Source of the DNA: Polaribacter haliotis
GTDB taxonomy: Bacteria > Bacteroidota > Bacteroidia > Flavobacteriales > Flavobacteriaceae
Direction of reading: 5' to 3'
DNA length: 64,000 bases
Assembly: GCF_014784055.1 (NCBI RefSeq)
Contig: NZ_CP061813.1
Location: 2,800,001 to 2,864,000, forward strand
A program made the translations under genes and the position numbers. Below the pieces are notes generated by a model. That model was given only the letters and a program-made list of their open reading frames with translations. It was not told the DNA's origin and did not search any database. Shown here in pieces: positions 7,866 to 64,000 of the stretch. Each line of letters opens with the position of its first letter. Position 1 is the stretch's first letter.

Positions 7866-7891
7866 ATAAAAAAGATTTTTAAAATTTGTAA

Positions 7892-7926
7892 ATGCCTTGA
7901 TACGTTTGTATCAAGGCATTTTTTTT
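7892..7926 (+). terminator. Intrinsic terminator after the TonB receptor
   Basis: A perfect 12-bp stem (ATGCCTTGATAC with GTATCAAGGCAT, loop GTTT) is followed by seven T residues, 26 bases after the stop codon. Confidence 0.9.
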
Positions 7927-8148
7927 AATTTTAATTATTTCTGTAACAAAATATCTTTTAAAGCTACTAATAGATAGAAACCCAACAAACTTTTCGAACA
8001 TTAAATAGTATTAAGTCTAGAATTAATCTATTAATTATAGTTGTTTAAGAAGTAAATTTCTTTAAAAAAGGTTTCTGTTTATAGACCAAATAAATACGGT
8101 TTGTTCAGTCTTAAACTCTTATATTTATTCACTTTAAAACTAACTATT

Positions 8149-8721: not shown

Positions 8722-8729
8722 AAACAACT

Positions 8730-10160: not shown

Positions 10161-10180
10161 ACCTTTTAATTTTTATGAGA

Positions 10181-10217
10181 ATCATCATTCAATATTTTTT
10201 TGAATGATGGTTTTTTG
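10181..10217 (+). terminator. Intrinsic terminator after the flotillin gene
   Basis: A 12-bp stem of ATCATCATTCAA with TTGAATGATGGT (one G-U) and a T-rich loop is followed by a T tract. Confidence 0.85.
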
Positions 10218-10246
10218 TTTTAACAAAGATTTTACTAACAATTTCT

Positions 10247-10254
10247 TAACTTTG
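10247..10254 (+). promoter_or_regulatory. -7 promoter element for the cupin_8 gene
   Basis: TAACTTTG matches the consensus 21 bases before the ATG at 10276. No good -33 element at normal spacing. Confidence 0.5.
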
Positions 10255-10275
10255 CATCGTCAAAAAAGCTAAGCT

Positions 10276-30569: not shown

Positions 30570-30577
30570 TATATTTG
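30570..30577 (+). promoter_or_regulatory. -7 promoter element of the giant adhesin operon
   Basis: TATATTTG matches the consensus. It is the best candidate upstream of the genes from 30733 to beyond 64000. No TTG lies at the normal -33 spacing, so it may need an activator. Confidence 0.45.
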
Positions 30578-30712
30578 CTTTTGATACTTTCTAAAGTAAC
30601 TAATTTTTACATTATTTAAATAAATAAAAGTATCAAAACTAAACTGAAAAGTAGTTTTTATTAGATTCAAGAATTAGTAAAACTTACTTTTTTTGTAATA
30701 GTTAAAAAATAA

Positions 30713-30730
30713 ATGTTTTTATAAAAACAT
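30713..30730 (+). promoter_or_regulatory. 18-bp perfect palindrome before the adhesin operon start codon
   Basis: ATGTTTTTATAAAAACAT is self-complementary and ends two bases before the ATG at 30733. It could be a protein site or an mRNA hairpin affecting translation. Confidence 0.4.
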
Positions 30731-30732
30731 AT

Positions 30733-33700
30733 ATGTTTAATCTGAAACATAAAGCACACAGTATGAAAAAAAAGTACTTACCACTAAACTGTAGTATTGT
30801 AAAACAGTTTTTTTTATTTTCAAAAAGCAAGAAAACAGTATTGTATATTGTTTTACTTTTTTTATTGAGTTTTGTTAATATAATTAAGGCACAAGATAGT
30901 TTTGAAAGTGATTTTGATGGTTGGGATCAAGTCTCTGGAGATGATATGAATTGGTCACGTGATATTGAAACTCCAAGTTCTAACACTGGTCCTGATTTAG
31001 GTTCAGATGGAGATTTTTTTCTTTTCATAGAGGCATCAAGTAATTCGGGTAAAAAAGCTTGGATAGAGAAAGAGTTTGATTTAACAGGAAAACAAAAATC
31101 TCAACTTAATTTTGACTATCATATGTATGGTTCTAATATGGGGTCTTTAAATGTTTTAGTTAACAAAAATGGTGTTTTAACAAATGTTTTTAGTAGATCT
31201 GGCGATAAAGGAGACGTCTGGCTATCTGCTACAGCAGACTTAAGTGCTTTTGATGGTGATGTAATTAAAATTAGGTTTGAAGGAATCGTAGGAAGTAATT
31301 TTAGAAGTGATGCGGCAATAGATAATATTTCAGTTACTTCTACTCCAGATACTGATGGTGATGGTATTATTGATGATGAAGATGCAGATGCAGATAATGA
31401 TGGTATATTAAATGTAGATGAAGGTTGTGCAGCAGTTGTTAGCTCAGATTTTAATTTAGTGCCGTCTGAAAGTGTTTTAGGAGACATGTCTGCTGGTGGT
31501 AAATTGGTGTACAAAGATGCTGCTGGTAATAAAGTAGTGTTAGAGGCTGCAGGTAGTGTTGGTAGTAATAATATTGTAGGTGTCGGACCAAATGATGGTA
31601 CCATAATTACAGATATTAACAATGGTAAGATTGCTTTTGAAATTGGTAAAACAGATAGTGCCGCAGATCAACCAAAACTAAAAATAACAACATTTTCTGC
31701 AGCAGGAGTTCCTTTTAAAGTTACTTCTATAGGATTAGGTGGTATTGGTAATATGGATAATTCTTCTGCACAAGATGCAATTGCAATGGATGTTCCTGGA
31801 ACTTGGTCTAATCTAACTTCAGCAGGTAATACCTTAGGATCGGCTCAAATTACAACTTCTCCAATTGGAGCTACACCAGTTAATAATGTTACACAGACAG
31901 AGTTAGATGCTTTCGATTTTACAAATTTTGTTACACAAGGTGCAGTGTCTGAAGTAATTTTTAATAACGCAGATAACAATGTTCAATTTGGCTATAATGC
32001 TACATTTTCGCCTACAAATCCAACAAGTTCATTTAACTTAATTGTAGACGATATAAATATTGATGATGGTGTTGGTAGAAATATTGTTGCAGAACTATCT
32101 ACAACATCAATTTCTGTTGCTGCTATTTATTGTAGAGATACAGATAGTGACGGAATACCAGACTATTTAGATACAGATTCAGATGGAGATGGATGTAGTG
32201 ATGCAGATGAAGCATATTTTGGAACTGTAACAAATGCAGATACAGACGATAATGGAACTTATGGTTCAGGAACTCCAACAGTAGATGGTGTTGGAAAGGT
32301 TTCAGGAGCTGCATATACTAGTCCAAACGCATATTATATAGATGCAAGTGTAAACGCTTGTTTTGATAATGATAATGATGGTGTACCAGATTCTGTAGAT
32401 TTAGATGATGATAATGATGGTATTTTAGATGGTGTTGAATGTCCAGATATTAGTTTTTCTAAAAACCTAATTATTAATAATGCGCAAAGGGGTAATTTAA
32501 CTGTAGTAGAAGGAGGCGCATCTGGAACACCATTTGTTTCAGATGCTGGGCCAAATAATAATGAGCAAGGATTGCGATATATAGATCAAGCACCTATGCC
32601 AACATATTACAGACTAAATACAAAAGGAGAAGATTACACTTATATAGATGGTAATAATTTAGTGTTTAGACTTTATGTAGAAGATCCGGGAGAAAGTTTT
32701 TTCGGAGGAACATCCGACATTCGATTAGGTAGTGGAGCAACTCAATTAACATTAGATTTAACTCAAGATCCTTTTGCACAGACCAAACCTGTAGGTAAAA
32801 CTGACTTTACAATATCTGTTCCTCTAACGGCTTCTAATTTTGGAGTTTCTCAAGCACAGTTTAATTCAGTTATAGCCTCTTTAGATTATATTGATATTCG
32901 TGCAGAGTTTTGGTTAGGTCCAACAGGCACAACAGAGAGTGAGCTTGTGCCACTTTTAAGTGATCCATGTGATATAGATAATGATGGAATACCAAATTAT
33001 AATGATTCAGATTCAGATGGAGATGGTTGTTCAGATGCAGATGAAGCCTATTTAGGTTCAGTTGCTAATGCAGATGCAGATAATAATGGATTTTATGGTT
33101 CAGGAACACCAACAGTTGGAACAGATGGAAAAGTTTCTGGAGCGCCTTATACAACACCAAATGCCTATTATTTAGATGCAAGCATTAATGCCTGTGAAGA
33201 TAATGATAATGATGGAATTCCTGATTCTGTAGATTTAGATGATGATAATGATGGTATTTTAGATTCGGTAGAAAATAATTGTACAACTGCAACAACAGGA
33301 TTTTTCGATTGGGATACAGATTTTGGAGTTTCGCCTTCAGGTTCAGATATTTCAGGTTCATTACCAATAATATCAAATTTAGTAGACAATCATAACCTAA
33401 CAGTTTCTTTTGTAGACAACCCTTCAAACCCTGGTTTAGAGTATATGTCTGTAGAAGACGCTTTTGGTTTAGGAACAGTACTTCAAATTGTTAATGCCTC
33501 AGGAGAAACGGGTGGTGGTATAACAACTTTTGCTTTTACAAACGAAGTAAATAACTTAACCTTTACCATGCAAGATATAGATGCAAGAGGTTCAGATTTT
33601 AAAGATCGAATAATTGTAACGGCTAAAAGAGCAGATGGTACTATTGTTGTAATATCAGAAACAACAAATATTATAAGTAAAGGTTCTGCAGTTAGTTACC

Positions 33701-35430
33701 AAGGTAATAATGAAATTATAGGAATAGGAGATGTAGACTCTCCAAACCAAGCAAATGGAGTTTTAAAATTAAAATTTACAGAACCAATTACTGAGATTAG
33801 CTTTCAATATTTTAATGATTTAACGAGCCCAAATACAAGACAAAGAATAGGTATTGCAGATTTAGAATACGAATTTGTTTGTGATTCAGATTTCGATAAT
33901 GATGGTATACCAAATGCTTTTGACACAGATTCAGATGGAGATGGTTGTAGCGATGCAGATGAAGCTTATTATGGTTCAGTAAGTAATGCAGATACTGATG
34001 ATGATGGAGCTTATGGTACTAGTCCTGTTACTGTCGATGGGCAAGGAAAAGTTGCAGGTGCTGGCTACATTACACCAAATGCATTTTATTTAAATGCAGA
34101 TATAAATGCTTGTGAAGACAATGATAATGATGGTATTATAGATTCAGTAGATTTAGATGATGACAATGATGGTATTTTAGATACAGGTGAATGTACAACA
34201 AACCTAAGAGCTGCAAATGGAGATTTTGATGTTGCTATTTCAGGTTCTAACCCAGTATTAACACAAACCTTTGCAAACTCTTTTTCTATAACTTATACGA
34301 ATATAGGTGGTTCATCTATTGCTTCATATTCAGAACCTACAAAAGAAGCAGATGAACTTTATGCTATAGGAACACAATTTAAGTATGTTTACCCAAATGA
34401 AGGGTCTACCCAACAAATGACCTTTTCTTCGCCGGTAAAATTGAAATTTATGGTTACAGATATCGATCAATTAGGAGAAAAACATAGAGTAACAGTTTAC
34501 GATAAAACAGGCGCAATTATTCCAAATCCAGAAAATTTTATAGTTAATACAGCAGAAGGTACAACCGGAAGTTCTTTTGCAACTCGAACACCAAAAAAAT
34601 ATCCAGATTTAGGATTAGATGTTACAAAAGATGGAACGATAAGTGATGATTATGTAGAGTTGTCTCAAGAAAAACAGAAAGACAATGACACATATACAAG
34701 AAGAAACCTTGTCTTTTTTGACTTTAAAGAATTAGAAATCTCTAAAATAGTTGTACAAAATTTAAGTAATTCAGGTCAACCAGGATTTTTATTTGACTCT
34801 ATAAGAGCTGCTTGTGATACAGATCTAGATGGTATTCCAGATTATCAAGATACAGATTCAGACAATGATGGTTGTCCAGATGCAATAGAAGGAGCAGGAG
34901 ATATACAGTTGGGCCAACTTACAGCATTAACAGGAGGAAGTGTTGGAGGTAGTTTAAATAATTTAGGAACTACATCAGATGCAGAAGGAAATCCATTAGT
35001 TAATAGTACAGGTTATGAACAAAATAATACAGCAGCAGTTTTAGACGCAAATGATGCAACTGCTTGTTCTATCGATTTAAGTGTTACCAAAATTGTAAAT
35101 AAACCAATAAAGAAAGTTGGAGAAAAAATTGTATTTACAATAACACTTAAAAATGATGGTAATCAACCAGCAACAAATGTAAATGTTATAGACTTATTAC
35201 CACCAGGTTTAACCTATGATGCAGCAACTACAGTTATACCAACAAATACAACCTATGATTCTAGTACAGGTATTTGGGATTTGAGCTTATTAACACTGGC
35301 CAAGGGAAGTAGTTATCAATTAAAAATTGGCGCAACTGTTAATACAGCTGGTACAATATATACAAATAAAACAGAAGTTTTCTCTACAACAGAAACTGAC
35401 ATTGACTCAACTCCTAACAGCAACAACTAA
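30733..35430 (+). CDS. Large secreted TSP3-repeat protein with terminal DUF11 module
   Basis: This 1565-residue protein has a signal peptide with a long basic n-region ending near KAQD (about residue 55); an ATG ten codons later (30763) may be the real start. After it come a MAM/jelly-roll-like domain (about 57-205), then TSP3-type calcium repeats and three large beta domains. These are separated by three copies of a cassette that reads GCSDADEAY ... ASINAC ... DNDNDGIPDSVDLDDDNDGILD (starting near 487, 765 and 1071). One DUF11 module ends the protein. Like its upstream neighbour it stops without a T9SS sorting domain. It ends 11 bases before the giant gene. Confidence 0.82.
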   Translation: MFNLKHKAHSMKKKYLPLNCSIVKQFFLFSKSKKTVLYIVLLFLLSFVNIIKAQDSFESDFDGWDQVSGDDMNWSRDIETPSSNTGPDLGSDGDFFLFIEASSNSGKKAWIEKEFDLTGKQKSQLNFDYHMYGSNMGSLNVLVNKNGVLTNVFSRSGDKGDVWLSATADLSAFDGDVIKIRFEGIVGSNFRSDAAIDNISVTSTPDTDGDGIIDDEDADADNDGILNVDEGCAAVVSSDFNLVPSESVLGDMSAGGKLVYKDAAGNKVVLEAAGSVGSNNIVGVGPNDGTIITDINNGKIAFEIGKTDSAADQPKLKITTFSAAGVPFKVTSIGLGGIGNMDNSSAQDAIAMDVPGTWSNLTSAGNTLGSAQITTSPIGATPVNNVTQTELDAFDFTNFVTQGAVSEVIFNNADNNVQFGYNATFSPTNPTSSFNLIVDDINIDDGVGRNIVAELSTTSISVAAIYCRDTDSDGIPDYLDTDSDGDGCSDADEAYFGTVTNADTDDNGTYGSGTPTVDGVGKVSGAAYTSPNAYYIDASVNACFDNDNDGVPDSVDLDDDNDGILDGVECPDISFSKNLIINNAQRGNLTVVEGGASGTPFVSDAGPNNNEQGLRYIDQAPMPTYYRLNTKGEDYTYIDGNNLVFRLYVEDPGESFFGGTSDIRLGSGATQLTLDLTQDPFAQTKPVGKTDFTISVPLTASNFGVSQAQFNSVIASLDYIDIRAEFWLGPTGTTESELVPLLSDPCDIDNDGIPNYNDSDSDGDGCSDADEAYLGSVANADADNNGFYGSGTPTVGTDGKVSGAPYTTPNAYYLDASINACEDNDNDGIPDSVDLDDDNDGILDSVENNCTTATTGFFDWDTDFGVSPSGSDISGSLPIISNLVDNHNLTVSFVDNPSNPGLEYMSVEDAFGLGTVLQIVNASGETGGGITTFAFTNEVNNLTFTMQDIDARGSDFKDRIIVTAKRADGTIVVISETTNIISKGSAVSYQGNNEIIGIGDVDSPNQANGVLKLKFTEPITEISFQYFNDLTSPNTRQRIGIADLEYEFVCDSDFDNDGIPNAFDTDSDGDGCSDADEAYYGSVSNADTDDDGAYGTSPVTVDGQGKVAGAGYITPNAFYLNADINACEDNDNDGIIDSVDLDDDNDGILDTGECTTNLRAANGDFDVAISGSNPVLTQTFANSFSITYTNIGGSSIASYSEPTKEADELYAIGTQFKYVYPNEGSTQQMTFSSPVKLKFMVTDIDQLGEKHRVTVYDKTGAIIPNPENFIVNTAEGTTGSSFATRTPKKYPDLGLDVTKDGTISDDYVELSQEKQKDNDTYTRRNLVFFDFKELEISKIVVQNLSNSGQPGFLFDSIRAACDTDLDGIPDYQDTDSDNDGCPDAIEGAGDIQLGQLTALTGGSVGGSLNNLGTTSDAEGNPLVNSTGYEQNNTAAVLDANDATACSIDLSVTKIVNKPIKKVGEKIVFTITLKNDGNQPATNVNVIDLLPPGLTYDAATTVIPTNTTYDSSTGIWDLSLLTLAKGSSYQLKIGATVNTAGTIYTNKTEVFSTTETDIDSTPNSNN

Positions 35431-35441
35431 TTAATATATAG

Positions 35442-56400: not shown

Positions 56401-59400
56401 AATTATTGTCTGCAAGTTCAAATACTAATTTGGGTTCTGTATTATTCTCTGGTTGTGCAATTAATGGTTTGTTTGAAGGTAATAATATTTCAACTGCACC
56501 AACTCAAACTAACGGTGAAAATGAAACTATAGATGACGCAACAAATTCAGGTCCTGGTACATTTCCAGTATTTACTGTAAATGATGGAATTGATAGTGAT
56601 GGAGATGGAAAATCAGACGATAAGGATATAGATTCAGATAACGATGGTATTCCAGATAATGTAGAAGCACAAGTAACAGGATCTGGTTACATTGCACCTA
56701 ACGTAGGTGTTGTAGATACAGATGGAGATGGTTTACTTGATGCATATGACGACAATACTACAATCAGTGGTTTATCCCCTGTAGATACAGATGGAGATAA
56801 AATACCAGATTATTTAGATACAGATTCAGATAATGATGGTTTAGATGATACCAAAGAAGCAGGTTTCATAAAATCTACAGCGAATAATGATGCAGATAAC
56901 GATGGTTTATTAGATGCTTATGATGATGTTGATACAGGAACAGGATTGTTCGATGTAAATGATGATCAAAATGGAGGTGCATCAGATTTACCAAATGATG
57001 ATAATACAGCAACAACAGAAGTTGACTTTAGAGAAATCAAAGATAATGATGGAGATGGTATTCCAGACTCTGTAGATTTAGATGATGATAATGATGGTAT
57101 TCCAGATACAGTAGAACAAAATGGAAACCCAAATAGAGATACAGATAATAATGGTATTCCAGATCATTTAGATTTAGATTCAGATGGAGATGGAGTAAAT
57201 GACTTAACAGAATCAGGTTTTGGTCAAACAGACTTAGATAATGATGGAGTTATAGATGGTTCAGAAACTGGTTCTGGTTCAAACGGATTATTCGATTTAA
57301 TTGAAACAACACCAGAAAGCGGAGCAACAAAAGATACTCCACTAGATACAGACAAAGATGGTACACCAGACTTCCAAGACACAGATGACGATGGAGATGG
57401 AGTTCCAACTAAAAATGAAGACGTAGTTTCTGCAGATGGAGATCCAACTAACGACGATTCAGACAACGATGGCATTCCAAATTATTTAGATATAGATGAC
57501 GATGGAGATGGAGTTCCAACGAAAGACGAAGATGTTGTTACGAAAGATGGTAATCCATTAAATGATGATACAGATGGAGATGGAACACCAAACTATTTAG
57601 ATAATGATGATGATAATGATGGTATTCTAACCAAAGACGAAGATGTTGTAACTGTAGATGGAGACCCAACGAACGACGATTCAGATGGCGATGGCACACC
57701 AAACTATTTAGATAATGATGACGATAATGATGGAGTTCCAACAAAAGATGAAGATGTCGTAAATATAGATGGAGATTCAAGAAATGACGATTCAGATGGC
57801 GATGGTATTCCAAATTACTTAGATGAAGATGACGATAATGATGGAGTTCCAACTAAAAATGAAGATGTTGTAAATGTAGATGGAAATCCAACGAACGACG
57901 ATTCAGATGGAGATGGTACACCAAACTATTTAGACCAAGATGATGATAATGATGGAGTTCCAACAAAAGATGAAGATGTTGTAACTGTAGATGGAGATCC
58001 AACGAACGACGATTCAGATGGCGATAGTATACCAAACTATTTAGATCAAGATGATGATAATGATGGAGTTCCAACCAAAGACGAAGATGTTGTAACTGTA
58101 GATGGAGACCCAACGAACGACGATTCAGATGGCGATGGCACACCAAACTATTTAGATAATGACGATGACAATGATGGAGTTCCAACAAAAGAAGAAGATG
58201 TTGTAACTGTAGATGGAGACCCAACAAACGACGATACAGATGGCGATGGCACACCAAACTATTTAGATCAAGATGATGATAATGATGGAGTTCCAACAAG
58301 AGATGAAGATGTTGTAACTATAGATGGAGACCCAACGAATGACGATACAGATGGCGATAGTATACCAAATTATTTAGATAATGATGATGATAATGATGGA
58401 GTTCCAACCAAAGACGAAGATGTTGTAACCGTAGATGGAGATCCAACAAACGACGATTCAGATGGAGATGGTACACCAAACTATTTAGACCAGGATGATG
58501 ATAATGATGGAGTTCCAACAAAAGAAGAAGATGTTGTAACTGTAGATGGAGATCCAACAAACGACGATTCAGATGGCGATGGTACACCAAACTATTTAGA
58601 TAATGATGACGATAATGATGGAGTTCCAACAAAAGAAGAAGATGTAGTAACTGTAGATGGAGATCCAACAAACGACGATACAGATGGCGATAATATTCCA
58701 AATTATTTAGATAATGATGATGATAATGATGGAGTTCCAACAAAAGAAGAAGATGTTGTAACTGTAGATGGAGATCCAACGAACGACGATACAGATGGCG
58801 ATAATATTCCAAATTATTTAGATCAAGATGATGATAATGATGGAGTTCCAACAAAAGAAGAAGATGTTGTAACTGTAGATGGAGATCCAACAAACGACGA
58901 TTCAGATGGCGATGGTACACCAAACTATTTAGATAATGACGATGATAATGATGGAGTTCCAACAAAAGAAGAAGATGTTGTAACTGTAGATGGAGATCCA
59001 ACAAACGACGATACAGATGGCGATAATATTCCAAATTATTTAGATGAAGATGACGATAATGATAACGTTCCAACAAAAGACGAAGATGTTGTAACTGTAG
59101 ATGGAGATCCAACAAACGACGATACAGATGGCGATGGTACACCAAATTACTTAGATGAAGATGATGATAATGATGGTATACCAACAAAAGATGAAGACAT
59201 TGTAAATGTAGATGATAACCCAAGAAACGACGATTCAGATGGCGATGGTGTTCCAGATTATTTAGACAATGACGACGATAATGATGGTATTCCAAACAAA
59301 GACGAAGATTTAGATGGAGATGGAGATCCAACAAACGACGATTCAGATGGCGATGGTATTCCAAATTACTTAGATGAAGATGATGATAATGATGGAGTTC

Positions 59401-61439
59401 CAACCAAAGACGAAGATGTTGTAAGTAAAGATGGAAACCCATTAAATGATGATTCAGATGGCGATGGTACACCAAATTACTTAGATACTGATGACGATGG
59501 AGATGGAGTTCCAACCAAAGACGAAGATGTTGTAACTAATGATGGAAATCCAGCAAACGACGATTCAGATGGCGATGGTATTCCGAATTATTTAGATGAA
59601 GACGATGATAATGATGGTATTCCAACCAAAGAAGAAGATGTTGTAACTAATGATGGAAATCCAGCAAACGACGATTCAGATGGCGATGGTACACCAAACT
59701 ATTTAGATAATGATGATGATAATGATGGAGTTCCAACCAAAAACGAAGATGTTGTTACTAATGATGGAAATCCATTAAATGATGATTCAGATGGCGATGG
59801 TATTCCAAATTATTTAGATCAAGATGACGATAATGATGGTATTCCAACCAAAGACGAAGATGTTGTTACCAATGATGGCAATCCAGGAAACGACGATTCA
59901 GATGGCGATGGTATTCCAAATTACTTAGATGAAGACGACGATAATGATGGAGTTCCAACCAAAGACGAAGATGTTGTTACGACAGATGGTAATCCAGCAA
60001 ATGACGATTCAGATGGCGATGGTATTCCAAATTATTTAGATGAAGATGATGATAATGATGGAGTTCCAACTAAAAACGAAGATGTTGTAAATATAGATGG
60101 CAACCCATCAAACGACGATTCAGATAACGATGGTATTCCGAATTATTTAGATCAAGATGACGATAATGATGGTATTCCAACGAAAGACGAAGATGTTGTT
60201 ACTAATGATGGCAATCCAGCAAACGACGATTCAGATGGCGATGGTATTCCAAATTATTTAGATCAAGATGACGACAATGATGGTATTCCAACCAAAGACG
60301 AAGATGTTGTTACTAATGATGGCAATCCATCAAACGACGATTCAGATGGAGATGGTACACCAAATTATTTAGATCAAGATGATGATAATGATGGAGTTCC
60401 AACCAAAGACGAAGATGTTGTAATTGTAGATGGCGATCCAACTAACGACGATTCAGATAACGATGGTATTCCGAATTATTTAGATGAAGATGATGATAAT
60501 GATGGTATTCCAACTAAAGAAGAAGATCTTGATAATAATGGCAACCCATCTAATGATGATTCAGATAACGATGGTACACCAAATTATTTAGATGAAGACG
60601 ATGATAATGATGGAGTTCTAACCAAAGACGAAGACAGTAATAACAATGGAGATTTCACAGATGATGATGATGATAACGATGGTATTCCAGATTATTTAGA
60701 CAATGACGATTCAGATGGTGATGGAGTTATAGATTCTGTAGATTTAGATGATGATAATGATGGTATTCCAGATTTAATTGAGAATGGTGGAGACAATACC
60801 TTAGATACAGATGGAGATGGTATTCCAGATCATTTAGATACAGATTCAGATGGAGATGGTATTACAGATCTTGCAGAGTCAGGCTCAGGAGCACCAGATG
60901 CAGATGAAGATGGAGTTATAGACGGTTCTTTAATTGGTTCAGGAAACAATGGTTTATTCGATGATTTAGAAACATCTAAAGACAGTGGAATTCTTAATTA
61001 CGGAATTAGAGATACAGATAGTGATGGTAAGAGAGATTTCCAAGATATAGATGACGATGGAGATGGAGTTCTTACAATAGACGAGTTTATGTTAGACTGT
61101 GATACAGATGGGGTTCCAGATCATATAGATGTAACTAATTGTGACTTAGTGCCAAATGCATTCTCTCCAAATGACGATGGTGTTAACGATACTTTTGTAA
61201 TCCCAGCATTATCTAAATATCCTAACTTTAAGTTAGAGATTTATAACAGATGGGGTAATCAAGTATATGATTATAGTAATAGAGGAAAAACAAGTCCAGA
61301 TTGGTGGAATGGTTATTCTACAGGAAGATTAACATTAAATGATAGTAAGCCAGTACCAGTAGGAACTTATTATTATATCATTAATTTTAATGATGGAGTT
61401 AGAAAACCAATAACAGGATGGGTATATTTAAACAGATAA
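35442..61439 (+). CDS. Giant T9SS-exported cadherin-like/TSP3 surface adhesin, 8665 aa (SprB-like)
   Basis: A continuous frame of 8665 codons, roughly 0.9 MDa and strongly acidic. Order: signal peptide (1-36, cut near SYGQ), DUF11-like module (about 37-135), TSP3 (about 258-368), Ig-like (417-509), three cadherin-like modules (512-846), TSP3 (847-1707), Ig-like (1753-1848), 41 more cadherin-like modules of about 110 residues (1850-6405), TSP3 (6405-6787), a unique beta domain (6794-7013), TSP3 (7047-8563) and a T9SS type B domain (about 8568-8665). Module boundaries are marked by N-D-x-P-V-A. It should be secreted through T9SS and displayed as a calcium-stiffened filament. The downstream SprF-like gene supports an SprB-type adhesin; a direct orthologue is not shown. 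Confidence 0.9.
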   Translation: MKNMHKLFNFNKIRVINTKKFLLFIAIGLLSTISYGQSVTMLANATAADGTDNAGDKITYSLAVSNTGAIALNNVAITNSLGTTLTYVEGDTNSNNILDPKECWVYSSSAYDVTATNITNNSLVNLFGFTSTEITSPIFHTHSETIHEDDIAFARVLAINDLDAVDDDFSATAVNGITGGASGDITTNDLLNGVAVTDTNIDITILNDGGLTGVTVDANGNISVPANSATGSYTITYKICEKANTSNCDTATVIVKVDGDTDGDGVLDSVDECNGFDDNADNDNDGVADGCDLDDDNDGILDTAENATSGNPFVDTNNNGILDYQDPAHPDFEDTNSDNIDDRYDIDKDGKIDQFDTDADGDGCNDVLEAGHKESATKAGEVNGTGYSATDGKVTGFTTAYTGSNSNVTSAGTAPTVTVQPPNRNIIVGGTTTFPITTDGTVFRWESSTDGGVTYNTILNGSVYSGATTSTLTITGVTAAQNNNKFRVIVSKTDYVCPVTSDAGTLTTFTNDPPVASSNTITVDEESTGTSLGLTAPSDPDGNTLTITVTGLPTLGVVKTSLGVTVTNGATLTPAEIAGLVYDAPTAYNGTDDPGDFTYTVSDGIAAPVTGTADISVSAINDLPVAVGDAGTALEDNPVTLTTIGSNDTDEDGNVVPSTIILIDPANAANTGKTGTPLVIAGKGTYTVDAAGTVVFTPEANFNGDADINYTIKDNSGFASNQALLDISITPVNDVPVAVADVNSTTENITLTVAAANGVLSNDTDVDAGTTLNVTTFTVDGQTKNANETATITGVGTLQINDDGSYVFTPEANYTGAVPVTTYNITDNNPGTPGTASSTLTITINPDSDNDGVADIADLDSDNDGILDIVEGQGIDPTADADNDGTPNYLDADFPGGTAQFDFDGDGIPNHLDLDSDNDAIPDVLEAGYVDANNNGIADEAETSVGANGFADGLETAAESGVAQTAPRNTDASSDIKSTLINSLDRDSDNDGISDTEEAFSNNVTFNDTTNDGIVDGFVDTDNNGWDDRISAPTLATFPTPLNSDADSLPNYLDLDSDGDGLPDTFEGNFLVVDGDNNGIVGTGVPADTDKDGLADTNDADFAGNVNSGFGFNADRDGDGVKNYLDIDIDNDGIIDNIEGQATASYVAPKGTDTDNDGIDDAYDVDTAGGVAIGYANTDGGSAPDYADTDAENDGIFDINEGFYKAIVLTNNLDADADGDLDIAKFVDVDGDGLHDDFDENKVVGATSNSNNATNVGQTPQTHPDDDPAAPGGDRDWREASAQDNDGDGINDIVDLDDDNDGILDTDEDQGTDDGDPRTNPTDSDGDGIPNYFDLDSDNDGIPDYTEAGGTDDPDGNGQPGLGVLDSGEVNANGIPTAVAVGLISSNLANPDTDGDLIKNFLDKDSDNDGIPDVIEAGGIDPDGDGEYGSGTANDSDSDGLADALDPYDDRDGNADESLGGTPIVVKSSDPDGIPDYLDLDSDNDTIPDNIEGQTTAGYIAPSATFTDTDGDGLDDAYDTSNGGTAIIPVNTDGTDNPDYLDLDSDNDKINDIVEYGNASADSTGVNAGDGQTENSVGTNGLDNSYEDADDYTDVNGNVANTLDEDNDLASGGDVDFRDILDADKDGIADFDDLDDDNDGILDTAETPSANPDADSDNDGIPDYKDSDIGTLNANGIVATYDADGDGIPNHQDTDSDNDGCPDVTEAGNLVSTTKPGELNGTGYGIDGKVTGFEVNKGYTGTNGNVTTAGTPVVISTQPSDQEGFINGSATFKVVSTGTVFQWQQSTDGGTTFTDLVTGGNYAGADTAELTISNLSTAENGYKYQVIVSKTDYACDIPSTPPATLTVSNNPPVAIDDNDAGNPFTTNEDVAITIPTIAANDTDVEDTTPDASTIILIDPNNSSNTGKTGTPLVIANVGSYTVDPLGNVKFTPVLNFNGDADINYTIKDSSNNTSNEATIDIAVTDVNDAPVAVNNTSTGLEGAVQTLTTIGANDTDVDGTIDPTTIILIDPNNPTGPKGSNGTPLVVPNVGTYSVNGAGTVIFTPLENFNGSADILYTVKDNDGLVSNQATLDINVTPVNDAPVAQPDSGTSAEDVTLNVLAADGLLKNDSDVDANPLSVTKFVVDGTTVTVDPTSGGSSTIAGKGTLSINKDGSYTFVPVTNFNGNVPQVTYTVSDGTNSVNSTLDITISPVNDDPVLVADTNSTNEDVTLTVAGADGVLKNDTDVDAGTTLTVSSFTIAGVAGSTNAGDPAVTIPNVGTFQMNADGGYVFAPAKDYVGAVPVITYTATDGTSPKTSTLTITIDPQNDAPVAEDDTATVNEDTPLTVAKADGLIDDNDTDVDGDTLNVTQFVVGGTTVAVTPTTPGVRAIPNVGTITVNTDGSYSFVPVENFNGNVPEITYTISDGTNTDNAKLNITVTPVNDDPVLVADTNSTNEDVTLTVAGADGVLKNDTDVDAGTTLTVSSFTIAGVAGSTNAGDPAVTIPNVGTFQMNADGGYVFAPAKDYVGAVPVITYTATDGTSPKTSTLTITIDPQNDAPVAEDDTATVNEDTPLTVAKADGLIDDNDTDVDGDTLNVTQFVVGGTTVAVTPTTPGVRAIPNVGTITVNTDGSYSFVPLENFNGNVPEITYTISDGTNTDNAKLNITVTPVNDDPVLVADTNSTNEDVTLTVAGADGVLKNDTDVDAGTTLTVSSFTIAGVAGSTNAGDPAVTIPNVGTFQMNADGGYVFAPAKDYVGAVPVITYTATDGTSPKTSTLTITIDPQNDAPVAEDDTATVNEDTPLTVAKADGLIDDNDTDVDGDTLNVTQFVVGGTTVAVTPTTPGVRAIPNVGTITVNTDGSYSFVPVENFNGNVPEITYTISDGTNTDNAKLNITVTPVNDDPVLVADTNSTNEDVTLTVAGADGVLKNDTDVDAGTTLTVSSFTIAGVAGSTNAGDPAVTIPNVGTFQMNADGGYVFAPAKDYVGAVPVITYTATDGTSPKTSTLTITIDPQNDAPVAEDDTATVNEDTPLTVAKADGLIDDNDTDVDGDTLNVTQFVVGGTTVAVTPTTPGVRAIPNVGTITVNTDGSYSFVPLENFNGNVPEITYTISDGTNTDNAKLNITVTPVNDDPVATDDTAGTDPGVAIDIPVLTNDNDLDGDTITVSNITVQPTNGTATINPNGTIKFTPNPGANNFSDSFTYEISDGKGGTDTAVVNVTVPISPFPPVANPDTNSVNEDTTLTVTAANGILKNDTDGNLDALKVVSFTIAGIPGTKTIGTVTSIPNVGSIKINEDGSYEFIPVANFNGSIPEITYTVTDSSGLTTDDTSTLNITVNPTNDAPVAVADTNTTPEDTKLTVTAANGVLKNDSDLDGDAISVKEFEINGTTSTVGTAVTLTEGVFTLLSDGSYTFTPAKDFNGSVPEVTYTMSDGTIDVDATLNISVTPVNDPPVAVDNLGNVANEENSVTIATIGTNDTDDGTIDPSTVKLIDPNNASNFGDSTTPLIISGVGTYTVNANGDVVFTPVANFNGPANIKYTIKDNDGVTSLNQATIGITITPTNDVPVAVADTNTVDEGATLTVTAANGILKNDSDIDGNPLKVTQITIGGTSYPAGTTATIPEGTLVVKSDGSYTFTPAGDFNGDFPQVTYTVSDGTTTTTSTLDIKVNPVNDRPVASPDTNTTNEDILLTVTAANGILKNDSDVDNDPLTITGYTVNGATRTINTDVVLTEGTLNIKADGSYTFQPALNFNGDVPQVTYTVSDGNLSATSTLDIKVNPINDAPTAVLDTNTVAEDVTLTVTAANGVLKNDSDIDMDGLTVTKFTVGGISYNAGDTVSLTEGSLKLNSDGSYSFTPVANFNGTVPTVTYTVSDGTNTSNTTLKITVTPVNDAPDLVADTNTTIEDTQLTVAAANGVLKNDTDKENNSISVTKFTVGGTDFTAGATATLTEGTLKLNADGGYVFNPAPNFNGSYPQVTYTATDGTDTATSTLDITVTPVNDSPVALTDTNATNEDTPLNVTAANGLLKNDTDPENDPLTVTQFTVGGNTFTAGNPATITEGVIKINSDGSYTFTPATNYNGPVPVINYTISDGTNTANSTLKLTVNTVNDAPTAVADTNTTTEDVTLTVTPANGVLKNDSDIDGDVINVSGFTVEGTSYLAGETATTAAGTIKLDSNGGYTYIPATNFNGDIPQVTYTITDGVLTASTTLDINVTPVNDAPVASPDTNSTNEDVTLNVPAATGLLNNDSDPEGNAISVTKFTINGTVYTAGTSATITEGVIKINADGSYSFTPALNYNGAVPVVNYTISDGSSTANSTLTLTINPINDAPTAVADTNTTPEDVTLTVTGANGVLKNDSDIDGNTITVSQFEVGGTTVTAGTPTTITEGTITVNTDGGYVFVPAANFNGTVPTVTYTVSDGTTDVATATLIITVTPTNDTPTLVVDTNTTPEDTALSVNAASGVLSNDTDIDGDTVTVSKFTVGGTTYNAGQTATIPSGTIKLNADGSYDYTPALNFNGTVPTITYTATDGVNTANSTLKINVTPVNDDPVATDDTSSTDPTTPTQSFPVEIPVLTNDTDLDGDSLSITSVTVPGKGTAVYDDKGTTDPSDDVIIYTPQLGFNNGTDTFTYEISDGNGTDTAVVTITVPQSAFSPVANPDTNVTDEEVTLSVADGTPKSLIKNDTDANLDPLRVTQFVVEGATITVTPTTPGTTVINNVGTITINSGGGYNFEPVKDFNGTVPVINYTITDDQGTPNASSTLTITVNPLNDEPVANPDMKTTPEDTTLTVTVANGLLSNDTDIDGDILTVKEFEIGGTTYPVGVAVDLPEGSLNINSDGSYSFTPAPNSTVDLPQVTYTITDGTVDTKTSTLDISVTSVNDAPVAEDDLNNTGFEDNPIIVNLITGNDTDDSPILPATIILIDPSNPGNTAVVGTPLVITGVGSYVADNTGKVTFTPEDHYFGPANVNYTISDDADPTLGLTSNAATIGITVTSVNDEPIVQDETNTTPEDTQLVVSGTSTDGLLNNDTDADGDPLTISTFEAEGTTYNAGDTAVLNDGTLSISSDGGYIFTPNSDFNGTIPTVTYNVTDGVITTPIAGTLDIEVLGVNDAPIALNDLGNTGLEDNPITTNVITANDSDDNPLLPATIILIDPNNPTNTAVVGTPLVISGVGSYIADNTGIVTFTPEDHYFGPANVNYTISDDLDPTLGLTSNVATIGITVTSLNDTPVVENKMNTTSEDTQLVVSATSPNGLLTNSTDADGDPLTISTFEAEGTTYNAGDTAILNDGTLKINSDGSYTFTPNENFSGAIPKVIFNATDGTDTVAGELDITVGSVNDAPVAVDDLGNTTNEDTDIEIALVGGNDTDDGAVVPSTIVLIDPSNPSNTGNLTMPLEIVGVGIYTLDNLGNVTLDPVDNYNGPANVNYTINDNDPTTPLTSNVATIGITVTAVNDAPIVADETTTNLIFEDTPYTESAATGLLINDSDTDGDPLSISTYIVDGKTYNAGQSANLTKGTLKINSDGSYTFNPAQDYFGPVPPITYNVSDGTTTTPASLTIAVVPVNDPPVAVADKNTTNEDTVLTVSQANGILANDSDIENDALTVTALMVNGNPATVGSPINLTEGVLQIEANGSYVFTPTANFNGTVPTVTYTVKDGTDTTTSTLDITVTPVNDVPVAIADTNTTPEDVAVSVNAANGLLNNDSDPENNTLAVTSFTVGGTTYVAGNTVTLTEGSLVINSNGSYTFTPALNYNGTVPTISYTLSDGTNTANSTLDITVTPLNDAPVATDDISSTDPGVSVIIPVLPNDTDLDGDTLTISSIVTQPGNGTVTINTDGTITYTPNPGFNTGTDVFVYQVCDGNGLCDTATVSVKVPKSLLPPVANPDVRFTSEDVTLTVAAANGLLNNDTDANPGETLTVTKFQISGTNYNPGDTATIAEGTITINADGSYTYVPAANYNGSVPVINYTISDGTGTAPASSTLTITVSGINDAPVANPDTNTTPEDTQLSVTAANGLINNDTDPDGTPLTLTQFVVNGITSTAGTTVTLTEGSLTVNGDGSYTFNPAKDYVGTVPQVTYTVTDGVENVTSTLDITVTGVNDAPIAVDDSVTTTEDTPVTISNITGNDTDDNTVDPSTVTLIDPNNPSNTGNSTTPLVVPGVGTYTVDNSGNVTFTPDPNFNGSADINYTVKDNDGLVTKTPAKISITVTPVNDTPNAVADVNSTTEDTPLIVSSANGVLSNDSDVEGTLLTVLEFTINGTDYPAGTTASITEGTLVINSDGSYTYTPALDYVGAVPQVTYTVSDGVNNTSTTLDITVTGQNDAPVAVDDSETTVQNTPVTVATITANDSDSDGTVDPSTVILIDPNNPTNIGDSTTPLVIANVGTYTVDALGNVIFTPEPEFTGVANINYTVEDDLGLVSNIAKVTITVQPDNDGDGIIDTVDLDDDNDGIPDTVENGGDDPLNDTDNDGIPDYRDTDNITKDDNNDGIDDKYDLDGDGIIDQFDTDGDNDGIPDVVEAGGTDTDGDGKVDNFTDTNNDGLDDTIATTPLTTPDTDGDGVPNYQDIDSDNDGILDNIEGQDPANYIAPSGTDTDKDGIDDAYDADCTPCGSITGSPINTPMNSDSDVIPNYLDIDADNDGIVDNIEWQTTSGYIAPGVDTDGNGLADVYETMPGSGIPISNPVNTDGTDTPDYTDTDSDGDGLLDTVEAYDTDGDNVAEPGKIFTGVDTDNDGLDDAFDLNPNGPTDSGAASNNNQDVTDFPNDQDPGTAEVDFRDKFTFGVLVDTDGDGISDDIDIDDDNDGIIDVVESLGFEPSSDPNDSSCILPNVSFKNPVYVAGSGTGSGTIGAKYRFENVVDVTGFGGSGGILDAIIEITDIQGGASLISIDNSTTGNPDAWQPEYTVPTPTGNKAEMAFKVILVNDNTNTLYNISRFSGVIYDIDGANARESVILSRPGLYAVDNATLLNVTDNPATGLVTFQGPDDTYAGVDLAPGLATFFSYYNSSSFNIRFSAKLLSASSNTNLGSVLFSGCAINGLFEGNNISTAPTQTNGENETIDDATNSGPGTFPVFTVNDGIDSDGDGKSDDKDIDSDNDGIPDNVEAQVTGSGYIAPNVGVVDTDGDGLLDAYDDNTTISGLSPVDTDGDKIPDYLDTDSDNDGLDDTKEAGFIKSTANNDADNDGLLDAYDDVDTGTGLFDVNDDQNGGASDLPNDDNTATTEVDFREIKDNDGDGIPDSVDLDDDNDGIPDTVEQNGNPNRDTDNNGIPDHLDLDSDGDGVNDLTESGFGQTDLDNDGVIDGSETGSGSNGLFDLIETTPESGATKDTPLDTDKDGTPDFQDTDDDGDGVPTKNEDVVSADGDPTNDDSDNDGIPNYLDIDDDGDGVPTKDEDVVTKDGNPLNDDTDGDGTPNYLDNDDDNDGILTKDEDVVTVDGDPTNDDSDGDGTPNYLDNDDDNDGVPTKDEDVVNIDGDSRNDDSDGDGIPNYLDEDDDNDGVPTKNEDVVNVDGNPTNDDSDGDGTPNYLDQDDDNDGVPTKDEDVVTVDGDPTNDDSDGDSIPNYLDQDDDNDGVPTKDEDVVTVDGDPTNDDSDGDGTPNYLDNDDDNDGVPTKEEDVVTVDGDPTNDDTDGDGTPNYLDQDDDNDGVPTRDEDVVTIDGDPTNDDTDGDSIPNYLDNDDDNDGVPTKDEDVVTVDGDPTNDDSDGDGTPNYLDQDDDNDGVPTKEEDVVTVDGDPTNDDSDGDGTPNYLDNDDDNDGVPTKEEDVVTVDGDPTNDDTDGDNIPNYLDNDDDNDGVPTKEEDVVTVDGDPTNDDTDGDNIPNYLDQDDDNDGVPTKEEDVVTVDGDPTNDDSDGDGTPNYLDNDDDNDGVPTKEEDVVTVDGDPTNDDTDGDNIPNYLDEDDDNDNVPTKDEDVVTVDGDPTNDDTDGDGTPNYLDEDDDNDGIPTKDEDIVNVDDNPRNDDSDGDGVPDYLDNDDDNDGIPNKDEDLDGDGDPTNDDSDGDGIPNYLDEDDDNDGVPTKDEDVVSKDGNPLNDDSDGDGTPNYLDTDDDGDGVPTKDEDVVTNDGNPANDDSDGDGIPNYLDEDDDNDGIPTKEEDVVTNDGNPANDDSDGDGTPNYLDNDDDNDGVPTKNEDVVTNDGNPLNDDSDGDGIPNYLDQDDDNDGIPTKDEDVVTNDGNPGNDDSDGDGIPNYLDEDDDNDGVPTKDEDVVTTDGNPANDDSDGDGIPNYLDEDDDNDGVPTKNEDVVNIDGNPSNDDSDNDGIPNYLDQDDDNDGIPTKDEDVVTNDGNPANDDSDGDGIPNYLDQDDDNDGIPTKDEDVVTNDGNPSNDDSDGDGTPNYLDQDDDNDGVPTKDEDVVIVDGDPTNDDSDNDGIPNYLDEDDDNDGIPTKEEDLDNNGNPSNDDSDNDGTPNYLDEDDDNDGVLTKDEDSNNNGDFTDDDDDNDGIPDYLDNDDSDGDGVIDSVDLDDDNDGIPDLIENGGDNTLDTDGDGIPDHLDTDSDGDGITDLAESGSGAPDADEDGVIDGSLIGSGNNGLFDDLETSKDSGILNYGIRDTDSDGKRDFQDIDDDGDGVLTIDEFMLDCDTDGVPDHIDVTNCDLVPNAFSPNDDGVNDTFVIPALSKYPNFKLEIYNRWGNQVYDYSNRGKTSPDWWNGYSTGRLTLNDSKPVPVGTYYYIINFNDGVRKPITGWVYLNR
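37980..40560 (+). repeat. TSP3 calcium-repeat block II of the giant adhesin
   Basis: This codes for residues about 847-1707, dense in D-x-D-x-D-G loops (DSDNDGIPDVLEAG type). Spacers carry patterned phrases such as NIEGQTTAGYIAP. The repeats are diverged, unlike the later 111-bp block. Confidence 0.8.
42018..44765 (+). repeat. Four tandem, almost identical 687-bp repeats
   Basis: The units start at 42018, 42705, 43392 and 44079, each 229 codons and two cadherin-like modules. By eye I find only three variable positions: an AGC/AGT codon, a GTA/TTA codon, and a GGG/GGA codon. Copies 1 and 3 have GTA and copies 2 and 4 have TTA at the second site. Confidence 0.95.
50010..51377 (+). repeat. Two diverged 687/681-bp repeats in the giant adhesin
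   Basis: The units begin at 50010 and 50697 (687 bp apart) and the next related unit begins at 51378. Each pairs one TIILIDPNNP-class module with one TNTTxEDTQLVV-class module. They share phrases such as TFTPEDHYFGPANVNYTISD but differ at many positions, so this duplication is older than the 42018 array. Confidence 0.75.
55820..56580 (+). other. Unique beta-rich domain between TSP3 blocks
   Basis: Residues about 6794-7013 of the giant protein contain no TSP3 or cadherin pattern. The segment has two cysteines (SCILPNVSFKNPVYV and FSGCAINGLF) near its ends and a Gly-rich core. It resembles the globular N-terminal parts of other flavobacterial adhesins. It is the only large non-repetitive domain in the protein and a possible ligand-binding head. 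Confidence 0.6.
57400..60660 (+). repeat. About thirty 111-bp (37-aa) acidic TSP3-type repeats
   Basis: The unit reads DEDVVTVDGDPTNDD then SDGDGTPNYLD then x-DDDNDGVPTK. I counted 30 units, including three shorter ones near the ends and at about 59290. Asp spacing suits calcium binding. Units differ mainly at N/E/D after PTK and in the VTVDGD/VTNDGN phrase, with V-T-V-D-G-D forms grouped upstream and V-T-N-D-G-N forms downstream. Confidence 0.92.
61141..61436 (+). other. T9SS type B C-terminal sorting domain
   Basis: The last 98 residues match the gliding-motility-associated C-terminal domain: VPNAFSPNDDGVND (from 8570), LEIYNRWGNQVYD, PVGTYYYIINF and a final GWVYLNR. This is the signal for export through the type IX secretion system. 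Confidence 0.93.
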
Positions 61440-61459
61440 TTAAGATAAAGGCAATAAAA

Positions 61460-62377
61460 ATGAAAAAAATTATAGTAATACTTGCAGTTATATTCTTTAC
61501 TGTTTCTGTAAAAGCACAACAAGATCCACAGTACACACAGTACATGTACAATATGAATATCATAAACCCAGCTTATGCTGGGTCATATGACGTTTTAAGT
61601 ATTAATTTACTAGGTAGATCTCAATGGGTAGGTATAGATGGAGCACCAAGAACACTTACAATGGGAATTAATTCTCCAGTAGGTAAAAATGTTGGTTTAG
61701 GTTTATCTGTTATTGTAGATGAGATTGGACCTGTTCAAGAACAAAACGTTTACGGAGACTTTTCGTATACCTTAAAAGTAGGAGAAAATGCAAACTTAGC
61801 GTTAGGTTTAAAAGCAGGGTTTACATTCTTTAATATTTGTTTACCATGTTTAAATGAAGTTAATGAAGGAGATCAAGCCTTTGTAAATCAAAATGCAAAT
61901 AAAGTAATGCCAAATATTGGGGCAGGTGCATTTTATTATACAGATAAGTTCTATGCAGGTTTATCAATACCTAATTTATTAAAAACTTTTCATTTTGATA
62001 AAAAAGGAGGGCAAATATCAAGAGCATCAGAAACGAAGCACTTTTTCTTTACATCTGGTTATGTATTCGATTTATCAAACGATGTAAAGTTAAAGCCATC
62101 TACCATGATAAAAGCAGCAGAAGGATCTCCATTATCAATAGATTTTTCTGGAAACGTTTTATTATATGATAAATTAGAATTTGGTCTTTCTTATAGGTTA
62201 GATGAATCTGTATCAGCATTAATAAACGTAAGAGCAACAAACACTCTAAGAATAGGATATGCATACGATTATACCTTAACAAACTTAGGGAATTTTAATT
62301 CTGGTTCACATGAGATATTTGTACTATTTAATTTCGATTTTGAAAGAAACAAAATTAAATCGCCAAGATTCTTCTAG
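61460..62377 (+). CDS. PorP/SprF family type IX secretion outer-membrane protein
   Basis: This 305-residue protein starts at ATG 61460; an upstream in-frame ATG at 61418 overlaps the giant gene and adds 14 basic residues before the real signal peptide (MKKIIVILAVIFFTVSVKAQ). The mature start QDPQYTQYMYN ... INPAYAGSYD is the PorP/SprF signature, followed by a beta-barrel. In F. johnsoniae, SprF is needed to secrete the adhesin SprB encoded beside it. Here the gene begins 20 bases after the giant adhesin stop, so it is the likely dedicated partner. Confidence 0.94.
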   Translation: MKKIIVILAVIFFTVSVKAQQDPQYTQYMYNMNIINPAYAGSYDVLSINLLGRSQWVGIDGAPRTLTMGINSPVGKNVGLGLSVIVDEIGPVQEQNVYGDFSYTLKVGENANLALGLKAGFTFFNICLPCLNEVNEGDQAFVNQNANKVMPNIGAGAFYYTDKFYAGLSIPNLLKTFHFDKKGGQISRASETKHFFFTSGYVFDLSNDVKLKPSTMIKAAEGSPLSIDFSGNVLLYDKLEFGLSYRLDESVSALINVRATNTLRIGYAYDYTLTNLGNFNSGSHEIFVLFNFDFERNKIKSPRFF

Positions 62378-62391
62378 TTAACAAAACAATT

Positions 62392-64000
62392 ATGAAAAAA
62401 ACAATACAATTTACTCTCGTACTTTTATTCAGTTCTTTAACCATACTTGGGCAAACTAAAGAAACAAAAAAAGCAGACGTCCATTTCGAAAATTTATCTT
62501 ACGTTTCAGCAGCGCAAGAATATAAAAAGCTTGCAGAAGACAATGCAACTGAGCATGTGCTACAAAGATTAGGAGATAGTTATTACTTCAATGTAAAGAT
62601 GCAAGAAGCTTCAAATACATACAGTAAACTATTCAATAATTTTCCAACGCAAAAACCAGAGCATATTTTTAGATATGCACAAGCTTTAAGAGCAACAGGT
62701 AATTTTAATGATTCAGATGCTTGGATGAAGAAGTTTCACGAAGCTAAAAAGAACGACTCAAGAGGAATTCATTTTACAGATCACGAAGCGACTTTAAACG
62801 AACTTAGAAAAGGGAAACCAAACTATACAGTTAGTAATTTAAGAAGTATAAATACCGTTAATTCCGATTTTGGAGTTACAGATTATGGAAATACAATACT
62901 ATTCTCTTCACCAAGAAAAGGAAACATATTTGTGAAGAGAGGTCATACAAGAAACAATAAAAACTTCTTAGATATCTATAAAGTTATCAAAGAAAAGATT
63001 ACAACGAACGAAGGAGATAATTCAGATGTAAGACCAATGTTTACAGACGAAATAAACTCTAAATATCACGAATCTTCAGTTACTTTTTCTCCTGACAGAC
63101 AAACAATGTATTTCACGAGAAATAACTACAACAAAGGAGTGTATAAGAATGATAAAAAAGGATATAACAACCTTAAAATATACAAATCTGTTTGGGTTTA
63201 TAACGAATGGACAAATATAGAAGAACTTCCTTTTAATAGTAACGAATATTCTACAGGGCATCCATCTGTAAGTAAAGATGGTAAGAAATTATATTTCGCA
63301 TCAGACATGCCAGGAGGTATTGGAGAAACAGATATTTATGTAGTTGCTATTAATGCTGATGGATCTTTTGGAACACCACAGAATTTAGGTTCAGAAGTAA
63401 ACACAGAAGGTAGAGAAATGTTTCCTTTTATCTCAGATGAAGATGTATTGTACTTTTCTTCAGACGGACATTTTGGAATTGGAGCTTTAGATGTATTTGC
63501 AACTAAAAAAGAAAAAGGAGAATATAAAACACCAGTAAATTTAAAAGCACCTGTAAATTCTCCATTAGACGACTTTGCATTTTCAATAAATCCAATCGAT
63601 AGAACAGGATATTTATCTTCTAATAGAGAAGGTGGAGTTGGAGATGATGATATTTATGCAGTAGTAGAATTAGAAAAGCCAGAAGTAATTGTGGTAAAAC
63701 CACCATGTATGCAAGTAGTTTCTGGTGTTGTAAAAGACAAGAAGTTTAAAAACCCATTACCAGGAGCAAAATTGGTTTTAAAAGATGCAAATGGGAAGAT
63801 TGTTAAAGAAGTATATGCAGATACAAATGCATTGTTTACTTTTACATTACCATGTAACGAAGCATTTACATTAGATGCTACAAAAGAATATTACGAACCA
63901 GATACAGCTTCTTTCGTAACTACAGAAAATAAGGATTTAGAACTCGATTTAGACTTTGCTTTAGACATTATCTCAGATTTTGCATATAATGAAAGAGGAG
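62392..64000 (+). CDS. OmpA family protein with PD40 repeats (partial, runs off the window)
   Basis: ATG at 62392 opens 536 codons without a stop before the window edge. There is a signal peptide (about 1-20, TILGQ), a TPR-like helical region (about 30-130), then WD40-like PD40 beta-propeller repeats (SSVTFSPDRQTMYFTRN at about 225, HPSVSKDGKKLYFASDMPGGIGETDIY at about 289, YFSSDGHFGIGALDVF, GYLSSNREGGVGDDDIYAV). A carboxypeptidase-like regulatory domain follows (VSGVVKDKKFKNPLPGAKLVL, about 443 on). Proteins of this layout end in an OmpA peptidoglycan-binding domain, here outside the window. Such genes regularly follow PorP/SprF and may anchor the secretion partner. Confidence 0.88.
   Translation, partial: MKKTIQFTLVLLFSSLTILGQTKETKKADVHFENLSYVSAAQEYKKLAEDNATEHVLQRLGDSYYFNVKMQEASNTYSKLFNNFPTQKPEHIFRYAQALRATGNFNDSDAWMKKFHEAKKNDSRGIHFTDHEATLNELRKGKPNYTVSNLRSINTVNSDFGVTDYGNTILFSSPRKGNIFVKRGHTRNNKNFLDIYKVIKEKITTNEGDNSDVRPMFTDEINSKYHESSVTFSPDRQTMYFTRNNYNKGVYKNDKKGYNNLKIYKSVWVYNEWTNIEELPFNSNEYSTGHPSVSKDGKKLYFASDMPGGIGETDIYVVAINADGSFGTPQNLGSEVNTEGREMFPFISDEDVLYFSSDGHFGIGALDVFATKKEKGEYKTPVNLKAPVNSPLDDFAFSINPIDRTGYLSSNREGGVGDDDIYAVVELEKPEVIVVKPPCMQVVSGVVKDKKFKNPLPGAKLVLKDANGKIVKEVYADTNALFTFTLPCNEAFTLDATKEYYEPDTASFVTTENKDLELDLDFALDIISDFAYNERG

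Follow-up and report, generated by a model that had tools for sequence, protein, structure and literature searches.

A probable static-type giant adhesin locus in Polaribacter haliotis, with companion proteins that end in a shared DUF11 domain

The locus described here, from the genome of Polaribacter haliotis, probably encodes a very long, statically anchored surface adhesin fibre, which would be held by a PorE-like protein and joined near its N-terminus by companion proteins. This reading, drawn from sequence comparison, builds on the gene order, the domains, the lack of a cysteine in the tail of the SprF-family protein, the absence of SprB repeats and the retention of the block in nine genomes, all of which are directly observed; the docking of the companions on the giant protein has their linkage as its sole basis. 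The trio formed by the giant, SprF-family and PorE-like genes is best read as a known kind of system, the static PorE-linked type B adhesin.

The window, that is, the whole stretch of 64,000 nucleotides that was analysed, covers positions 2,800,001-2,864,000 of a 3.80-Mb genome assembled as one contig, and the features of the locus are collected in table 1. The original prediction placed the start of the block at 30570 and put a companion of 1565 amino acids first in the operon. The region 30763-35430 does belong to the block, which nevertheless starts earlier, with the ORF at 27798/27807-30188. The predicted companion exists, but it is one of two that share a terminal domain, and companion 1 precedes it; its record gives 1,555 aa, which fits the ATG at 30763 and not the earlier ORF start at 30733. 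Companion 1 is 793 aa long from the ATG at 27807, the length in its record, and its ORF is open from a TTG at 27798. At the other end, the spacing was as first described: the SprF-family gene lies 20 bases after the giant stop codon and the OmpA/PD40 gene 14 bases after the SprF-family gene, whose start is the ATG at 61460, a longer ORF start at 61418 overlapping the giant. Promoter and terminator scans found no more than in shuffles. Elsewhere in the window, a leucyl-tRNA synthetase-like gene (16917-20276) has a DUF559 match (PF04480) at residues 313-407, between synthetase parts.

Table 1. Features of the giant adhesin locus, in window positions
Feature	Position	Strand	Basis
Companion 1, IgGFc_binding-like head, two DUF11 domains	27807..30188	+	PF17517 124.1 bits, DUF11 145 bits
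Terminal DUF11 of companion 1	29793..30188	+	Alignment A1 match, E 8.3e-57
Companion 2, MAM head, Ca-type blocks, terminal DUF11	30763..35430	+	MAM 71.5 bits, DUF11 80 bits
Terminal DUF11 of companion 2	35023..35427	+	Alignment A1 match, E 8.8e-60
Giant type B adhesin, 8,665 aa	35442..61439	+	Single open ORF; domain scans
N-terminal domain of giant, common to nine Polaribacter giants	35547..35978	+	Alignment A2 match, E 4.1e-71
Four tandem 687-bp copies in giant, 99.7-100% identical	42015..44783	+	Sequence comparison
29.2 copies of 111-bp unit, encoding 37-aa Ca-type repeat	57396..60634	+	Tandem Repeats Finder score 4159
CHU_C / type B T9SS sorting domain, giant C-terminus	61149..61430	+	PF13585 96.9 bits (cut-off 27)
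PorP/SprF-family shuttle	61460..62377	+	PF11751 301.3 bits; TIGR03519 278.9 bits
PorE-like OmpA/PD40 protein, 661 aa	62392..64000 in window, end 64377 beyond	+	OmpA 61.4 bits, PD40 58.8 bits, whole protein

The giant is encoded, as had been claimed, by one uninterrupted ORF. The earlier estimate of about 44 cadherin-like modules agrees with the Big_9 stretches in two scanned pieces (24 + 20 = 44), the calcium blocks were recovered as Ca-type motifs in two regions (about residues 250-2000 and 6250-8650 by regex count), and the type B T9SS sorting domain scored above cut-off with both PF13585 and TIGR04131 (44.6 bits for a cut-off of 35, NCBIfam). Together with the gene order, these domains support the prediction that a type B giant is encoded together with a PorP/SprF-family shuttle of its own and an OmpA partner. 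The four 687-bp copies are a recent amplification of two-module units, and the length of the giant changes fast, since positional orthologues that could be read whole measure 10,233, 8,324, 8,538 and 5,843 aa in G060, G072, G094 and G111, respectively. By the SprB figure given with the original prediction, the giant is indeed larger than SprB, but this does not set it apart, as giants of 5-8 kaa are common; a search with its N-terminal region returned 34 proteins of 4,976 to 7,942 aa among the matches listed, and size alone is not remarkable. Judged by eye, the giant has a signal peptide of its own and its N-terminal domain looks DUF11-like. The possibility that companion 2 and the giant are a single gene split by error was rejected, because of this signal peptide (by eye) and because the boundary is kept in other genomes.

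No T9SS sorting domain was found in companions 1 and 2 by Pfam or NCBIfam. Their heads are unrelated and their terminal DUF11 is the same; in companion 1 it is the second of two such domains and lies at the very C-terminus. Upstream of the giant in nine Polaribacter genomes, we identified 19 companion ORFs, all of which terminate in a DUF11. The contigs are split at four of these nine loci, and the count includes the C-terminal half of a G060 gene that lies in two ORFs. The other upstream same-strand ORFs of at least 300 aa shown there numbered two, both in G060: the N-terminal half of the split gene and a 485-aa ORF. This split gene, an IgGFc-DUF11 companion (L187, about 8645-11044), is in two ORFs either by mutation or by sequencing error. 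A scan of eight companions, which came from four genomes and of which four belonged to another genus, showed only the terminal DUF11 as a common part, the heads being different or matching nothing.

The companions are linked to the N-terminal domain of the giant. This domain had a strong match (E 7e-60 or better) in 9 of 58 Polaribacter genomes and a weak one in three others; the same nine genomes hold a SprF at least 77% identical to that of the window, the next being this genome's own paralogue at 74%, and they are also the nine in which the search for companions extended to the terminal domain at E 1e-20. Across the family, 74 of 299 genomes matched the N-terminal domain at E 1e-6, and outside Polaribacter G175 stands out (E 2.1e-26, the next being 6.4e-20): there, the domain comes directly after four tandem terminal-DUF11 ORFs, followed by the contig end. 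The profile built from the terminal DUF11 found matches in 36 out of 149 genomes; 30 loci were read, four of which have this DUF11 as their ending (in this genome, G175, G128 and G003). The linkage is thus strong in one genus, with one good case outside it.

When the DUF11 pair of companion 1 was modelled with AlphaFold2 (mean pLDDT 89.8, pTM 0.74), a strand followed the first domain (residues 128-133, TESFTI), while the second domain ended shortly past a strand at 238-241 and a bridge of two residues. We tentatively read this as a terminal DUF11 that would lack its last strand. An ED(D) segment follows internal repeats in 57 of 82 cases by a rough regex, and a PDB search with the terminal DUF11 profile gave a best E-value of 0.023. 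A plain donor-strand scheme for the Polaribacter companions was considered and is not established; by eye, the N-terminal domain of the giant seems to own its last strand, and the mature N-termini of the companions are unlike donor strands. Within the set of loci L212 and L233, the ORF that follows a terminal-DUF11 protein in G128 starts, in its mature part and by eye, with a segment like the missing strand, a start seen in this follower ORF only; in G183, a single ORF holds both a DUF11 of this kind and what follows it.

What the companions do can be read in three ways. The one we put forward, tentatively, is that their terminal DUF11 docks on the giant. In a bolder and doubtful form of this reading, the companions would be CTD-less T9SS passengers: through strand complementation or a similar contact, the terminal DUF11 would bind the DUF11-like N-terminus of the giant, and one type B substrate would thereby take interchangeable heads out of the cell as a multi-subunit fibre tip. 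It is also possible, though doubtful, that the terminal DUF11 is a third kind of T9SS sorting domain and that the companions are exported on their own. Type A CTDs are described as C-terminal Ig-like domains (PMC11285876), and relatives of companion 1 with the same head do end in different C-termini: among the matches listed (120 of 532), the terminal DUF11 is the ending of 41 and a TNRRIT-type tail that of 64, while the remaining 15 include two with type B and three with type A sorting domains (the third type A assignment being precomputed). Against a sorting domain speaks that, in nine genomes and in G175, this ending goes together with the N-terminal domain of the giant, and that the ending is less conserved than the rest of the protein: mean pairwise identity among 32 relatives of companion 1 is 0.55 for the terminal DUF11, 0.62 for the internal DUF11 and 0.70 for the head. 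With the lowest value at the terminal DUF11, a special constraint on the companion tail is disfavoured. A third reading, which we consider improbable, takes the companions for periplasmic proteins or for remains of genes that lost their sorting domain. In the family, a DUF11 commonly precedes some 100 further residues, the size of a CTD, and the broken companion 1 gene of G060 would suit such decay; yet 19 ORFs from nine genomes, together with four tandem ORFs from another genus, retain the ending, and most of these frames are long and open.

In Zobellia, Maribacter, Cellulophaga and Arenibacter, IgGFc-DUF11 proteins carry a conserved short tail (TVITNRRITYRV and similar; 64 of P0071-P0190, loci L339-L342). 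It has no T9SS sorting-domain match, the stretch before it varies in length, and it could be a new C-terminal signal. In all four loci read from other genera, an IgGFc-DUF11-headed giant (4,106 to 4,185 aa) is followed by a CTD-less IgGFc-DUF11 protein with the TNRRIT-type tail; one such giant was scanned and has SprB repeats and CHU_C too. Type B giants thus have CTD-less neighbours in two recurrent forms, with a terminal DUF11 or with this tail. Among the best-ranked matches of a literature search (DUF11 or IgGFc with T9SS, Polaribacter giant adhesins, CTD-less or piggyback export), no such arrangement was reported.

Whether the fibre would be static or mobile can be judged from its neighbours. 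In Flavobacterium johnsoniae, a Cys-X-Cys motif in the SprF C-tail is described as required for gliding, one cysteine being bonded to GldK (PMC12635249). The PorE-linked substrate Fjoh_3952 is reported to be static and SprB mobile (PMC12618676), so that the static behaviour of PorE-linked adhesins rests on one tested adhesin; as these sources describe it, a porE-like gene in the operon is linked with static anchoring, and the operons of mobile substrates, SprB among them, contain no such gene (PMC12618676, PMC9143113). In the P. haliotis locus, the SprF translation ends in SPRFF, with no cysteine in the C-tail, and the OmpA/PD40 protein appears to be PorE-like. The latter identity is one of architecture, the best NCBIfam matches (CHU_0125_OmpA and T9SS_PorE) both being under cut-off; Pfam gave no TPR match in this protein, and no lipobox was seen by eye at its N-terminus.

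We compared these marks across related loci. The giant-SprF-PorE-like order proved common: among the 77 nearest SprF loci, a type B gene lies upstream in 73 and a PorE-like gene downstream in 71, and among 29 loci with the best PF11751 matches in other genera of the family, the figures are 29 and 23. A cysteine occurs within the last 30 residues in one of the 77 nearest SprFs and within the last 20 residues in none of the 29. As first controls in Polaribacter, we took 15 SprFs whose alignment to that of the window stopped short of the tail (a similar one in G090 was left out): all 15 end in N-x-C-Y-F and none has a PorE-like gene; at locus L308, where the alignment reaches the tail, a PorE-like gene is present and the tail cysteine is absent. 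A second control set (L345-L358) comprised 14 SprFs near SprB-repeat ORFs or found by similarity; all have a tail cysteine (LARCT), none a PorE-like neighbour, and the upstream ORF has SprB repeats and CHU_C in every case. These cysteine controls come from one genus, and their tails carry a single cysteine where a pair is reported. The single LARCT cysteine of Polaribacter SprFs beside SprB-repeat ORFs, set against the Cys-X-Cys pair of F. johnsoniae, is possibly a variation of the disulfide scheme.

For the 136 SprFs compared and the three of this genome (139 proteins), the tail cysteine is absent in 96 of the 97 with a PorE-like neighbour; it is present in 30 of the 42 without one and absent in the other 12, so that the two marks are not related one to one. 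In a quick tree of the same set, the 30 cysteine-tailed SprFs fall on one side of a branch with support of 97, their unity being unsure because long branches meet among them, and the SprF of the window is placed among PorE-linked proteins.

These observations bear on the original prediction of a gliding system homologous or parallel to that of SprB, in which the giant would be carried by SprF along the gliding track. A type B giant with a SprF directly downstream is what that reading expects, and the genome encodes GldK (with a cysteine at 341) and GldJ, so that a gliding track is possible and gliding by other adhesins of this genome is a possibility too. For this giant we nonetheless hold the gliding reading to be very unlikely: its SprF lacks the tail cysteine, has a PorE-like gene 14 bases downstream and groups with PorE-linked proteins, and the SprB repeat (PF13573), matched in 34 of 58 Polaribacter genomes, was found neither in the giant, by Pfam scans of both pieces, nor in the genome. 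Four of the nine locus-bearing genomes (G060, G072, G084 and G111) have SprB repeats elsewhere, which implies that the locus is not simply a substitute for SprB. The genome has three SprF-family genes. One belongs to a paralogous trio near 1.08 Mb (L010, L011; 1.066-1.098 Mb) with a giant of 4,391 aa, a SprF 74% identical to that of the window and a PorE-like gene; in the stretch read there, we found no companion and no N-terminal domain of the giant's type. The third, an orphan beside murI (1,768,552-1,769,397; L016, L201), has one tail cysteine and might serve type B proteins of this genome that lack an adjacent shuttle gene.

That the giant is instead a grappling hook like GhpA of Aureispira ixotrophy, whose sorting domain it matches (PDB 9flp, E 2e-11), is hardly credible, as a 667-aa cadherin-like piece had no PDB match at E 0.01 and two long pieces had none at E 0.001, the latter in a weak search that missed the sorting-domain match inside one of them.

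Under the static-fibre reading, the giant would be exported by the T9SS through its type B domain and taken up by its own PorP/SprF-type barrel, a pairing modelled on published relatives (the need of a cognate shuttle for export is described for F. johnsoniae pairs only; PMC12618676). The PorE-like OmpA protein, again by analogy with published relatives, would hold it to peptidoglycan instead of the gliding track. The roughly 29 Ca-type 37-aa repeats may form a stalk near the cell, from which the 44 or so cadherin-like modules would carry the N-terminus of the giant outwards; the companions would most likely join this outer part of the fibre through their shared terminal DUF11, and the function of the whole is presumably adhesive.

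The giant-SprF-PorE-like trio is a common flavobacterial arrangement. The unusual part is that a giant with a particular N-terminal domain is accompanied by linked, secreted-looking proteins whose heads vary, whose terminal domain is constant and in which no known export domain occurs. If the companions leave the cell with the giant, they would break the rule that every T9SS passenger must have a CTD of its own, and giant adhesins could be modular assemblies. Taken together, the SprF tail cysteine and the PorE-like neighbour offer a simple sequence test to separate likely mobile from likely static type B adhesins.

Several known systems can be set beside this locus. Aureispira GhpA is alike in its type B sorting domain (no match was seen outside that domain, at limited sensitivity). 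F. johnsoniae SprB-SprF shares the giant type B substrate and the SprF-family gene directly downstream; it differs in its Cys-X-Cys tail and in having, as described, no adjoining porE-like gene (PMC12635249, PMC9143113), and the giant here is without SprB repeats. The P. gingivalis PG1035-PorP-PorE set has the same three kinds of parts, with wall anchoring proposed, but PG1035 is small by comparison and described as alone of its type in that genome, and PorE is a lipoprotein there (PMC9143113), unlike the PorE-like protein here as judged by its N-terminus. The IgGFc-DUF11 pairs of other flavobacterial genera (L339-L342) also place a CTD-less IgGFc-DUF11 protein beside a type B giant; in these, the companion comes after the giant and has a TNRRIT-type tail, and the giant has an IgGFc head. 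F. johnsoniae Fjoh_3952-Fjoh_3951-Fjoh_3950 shows the same order of type B substrate, PorP/SprF-like and PorE-like genes (PMC12618676); in P. haliotis, this arrangement, likened by gene order and not by sequence, is extended by CTD-less companions, and its giant has 8,665 aa.
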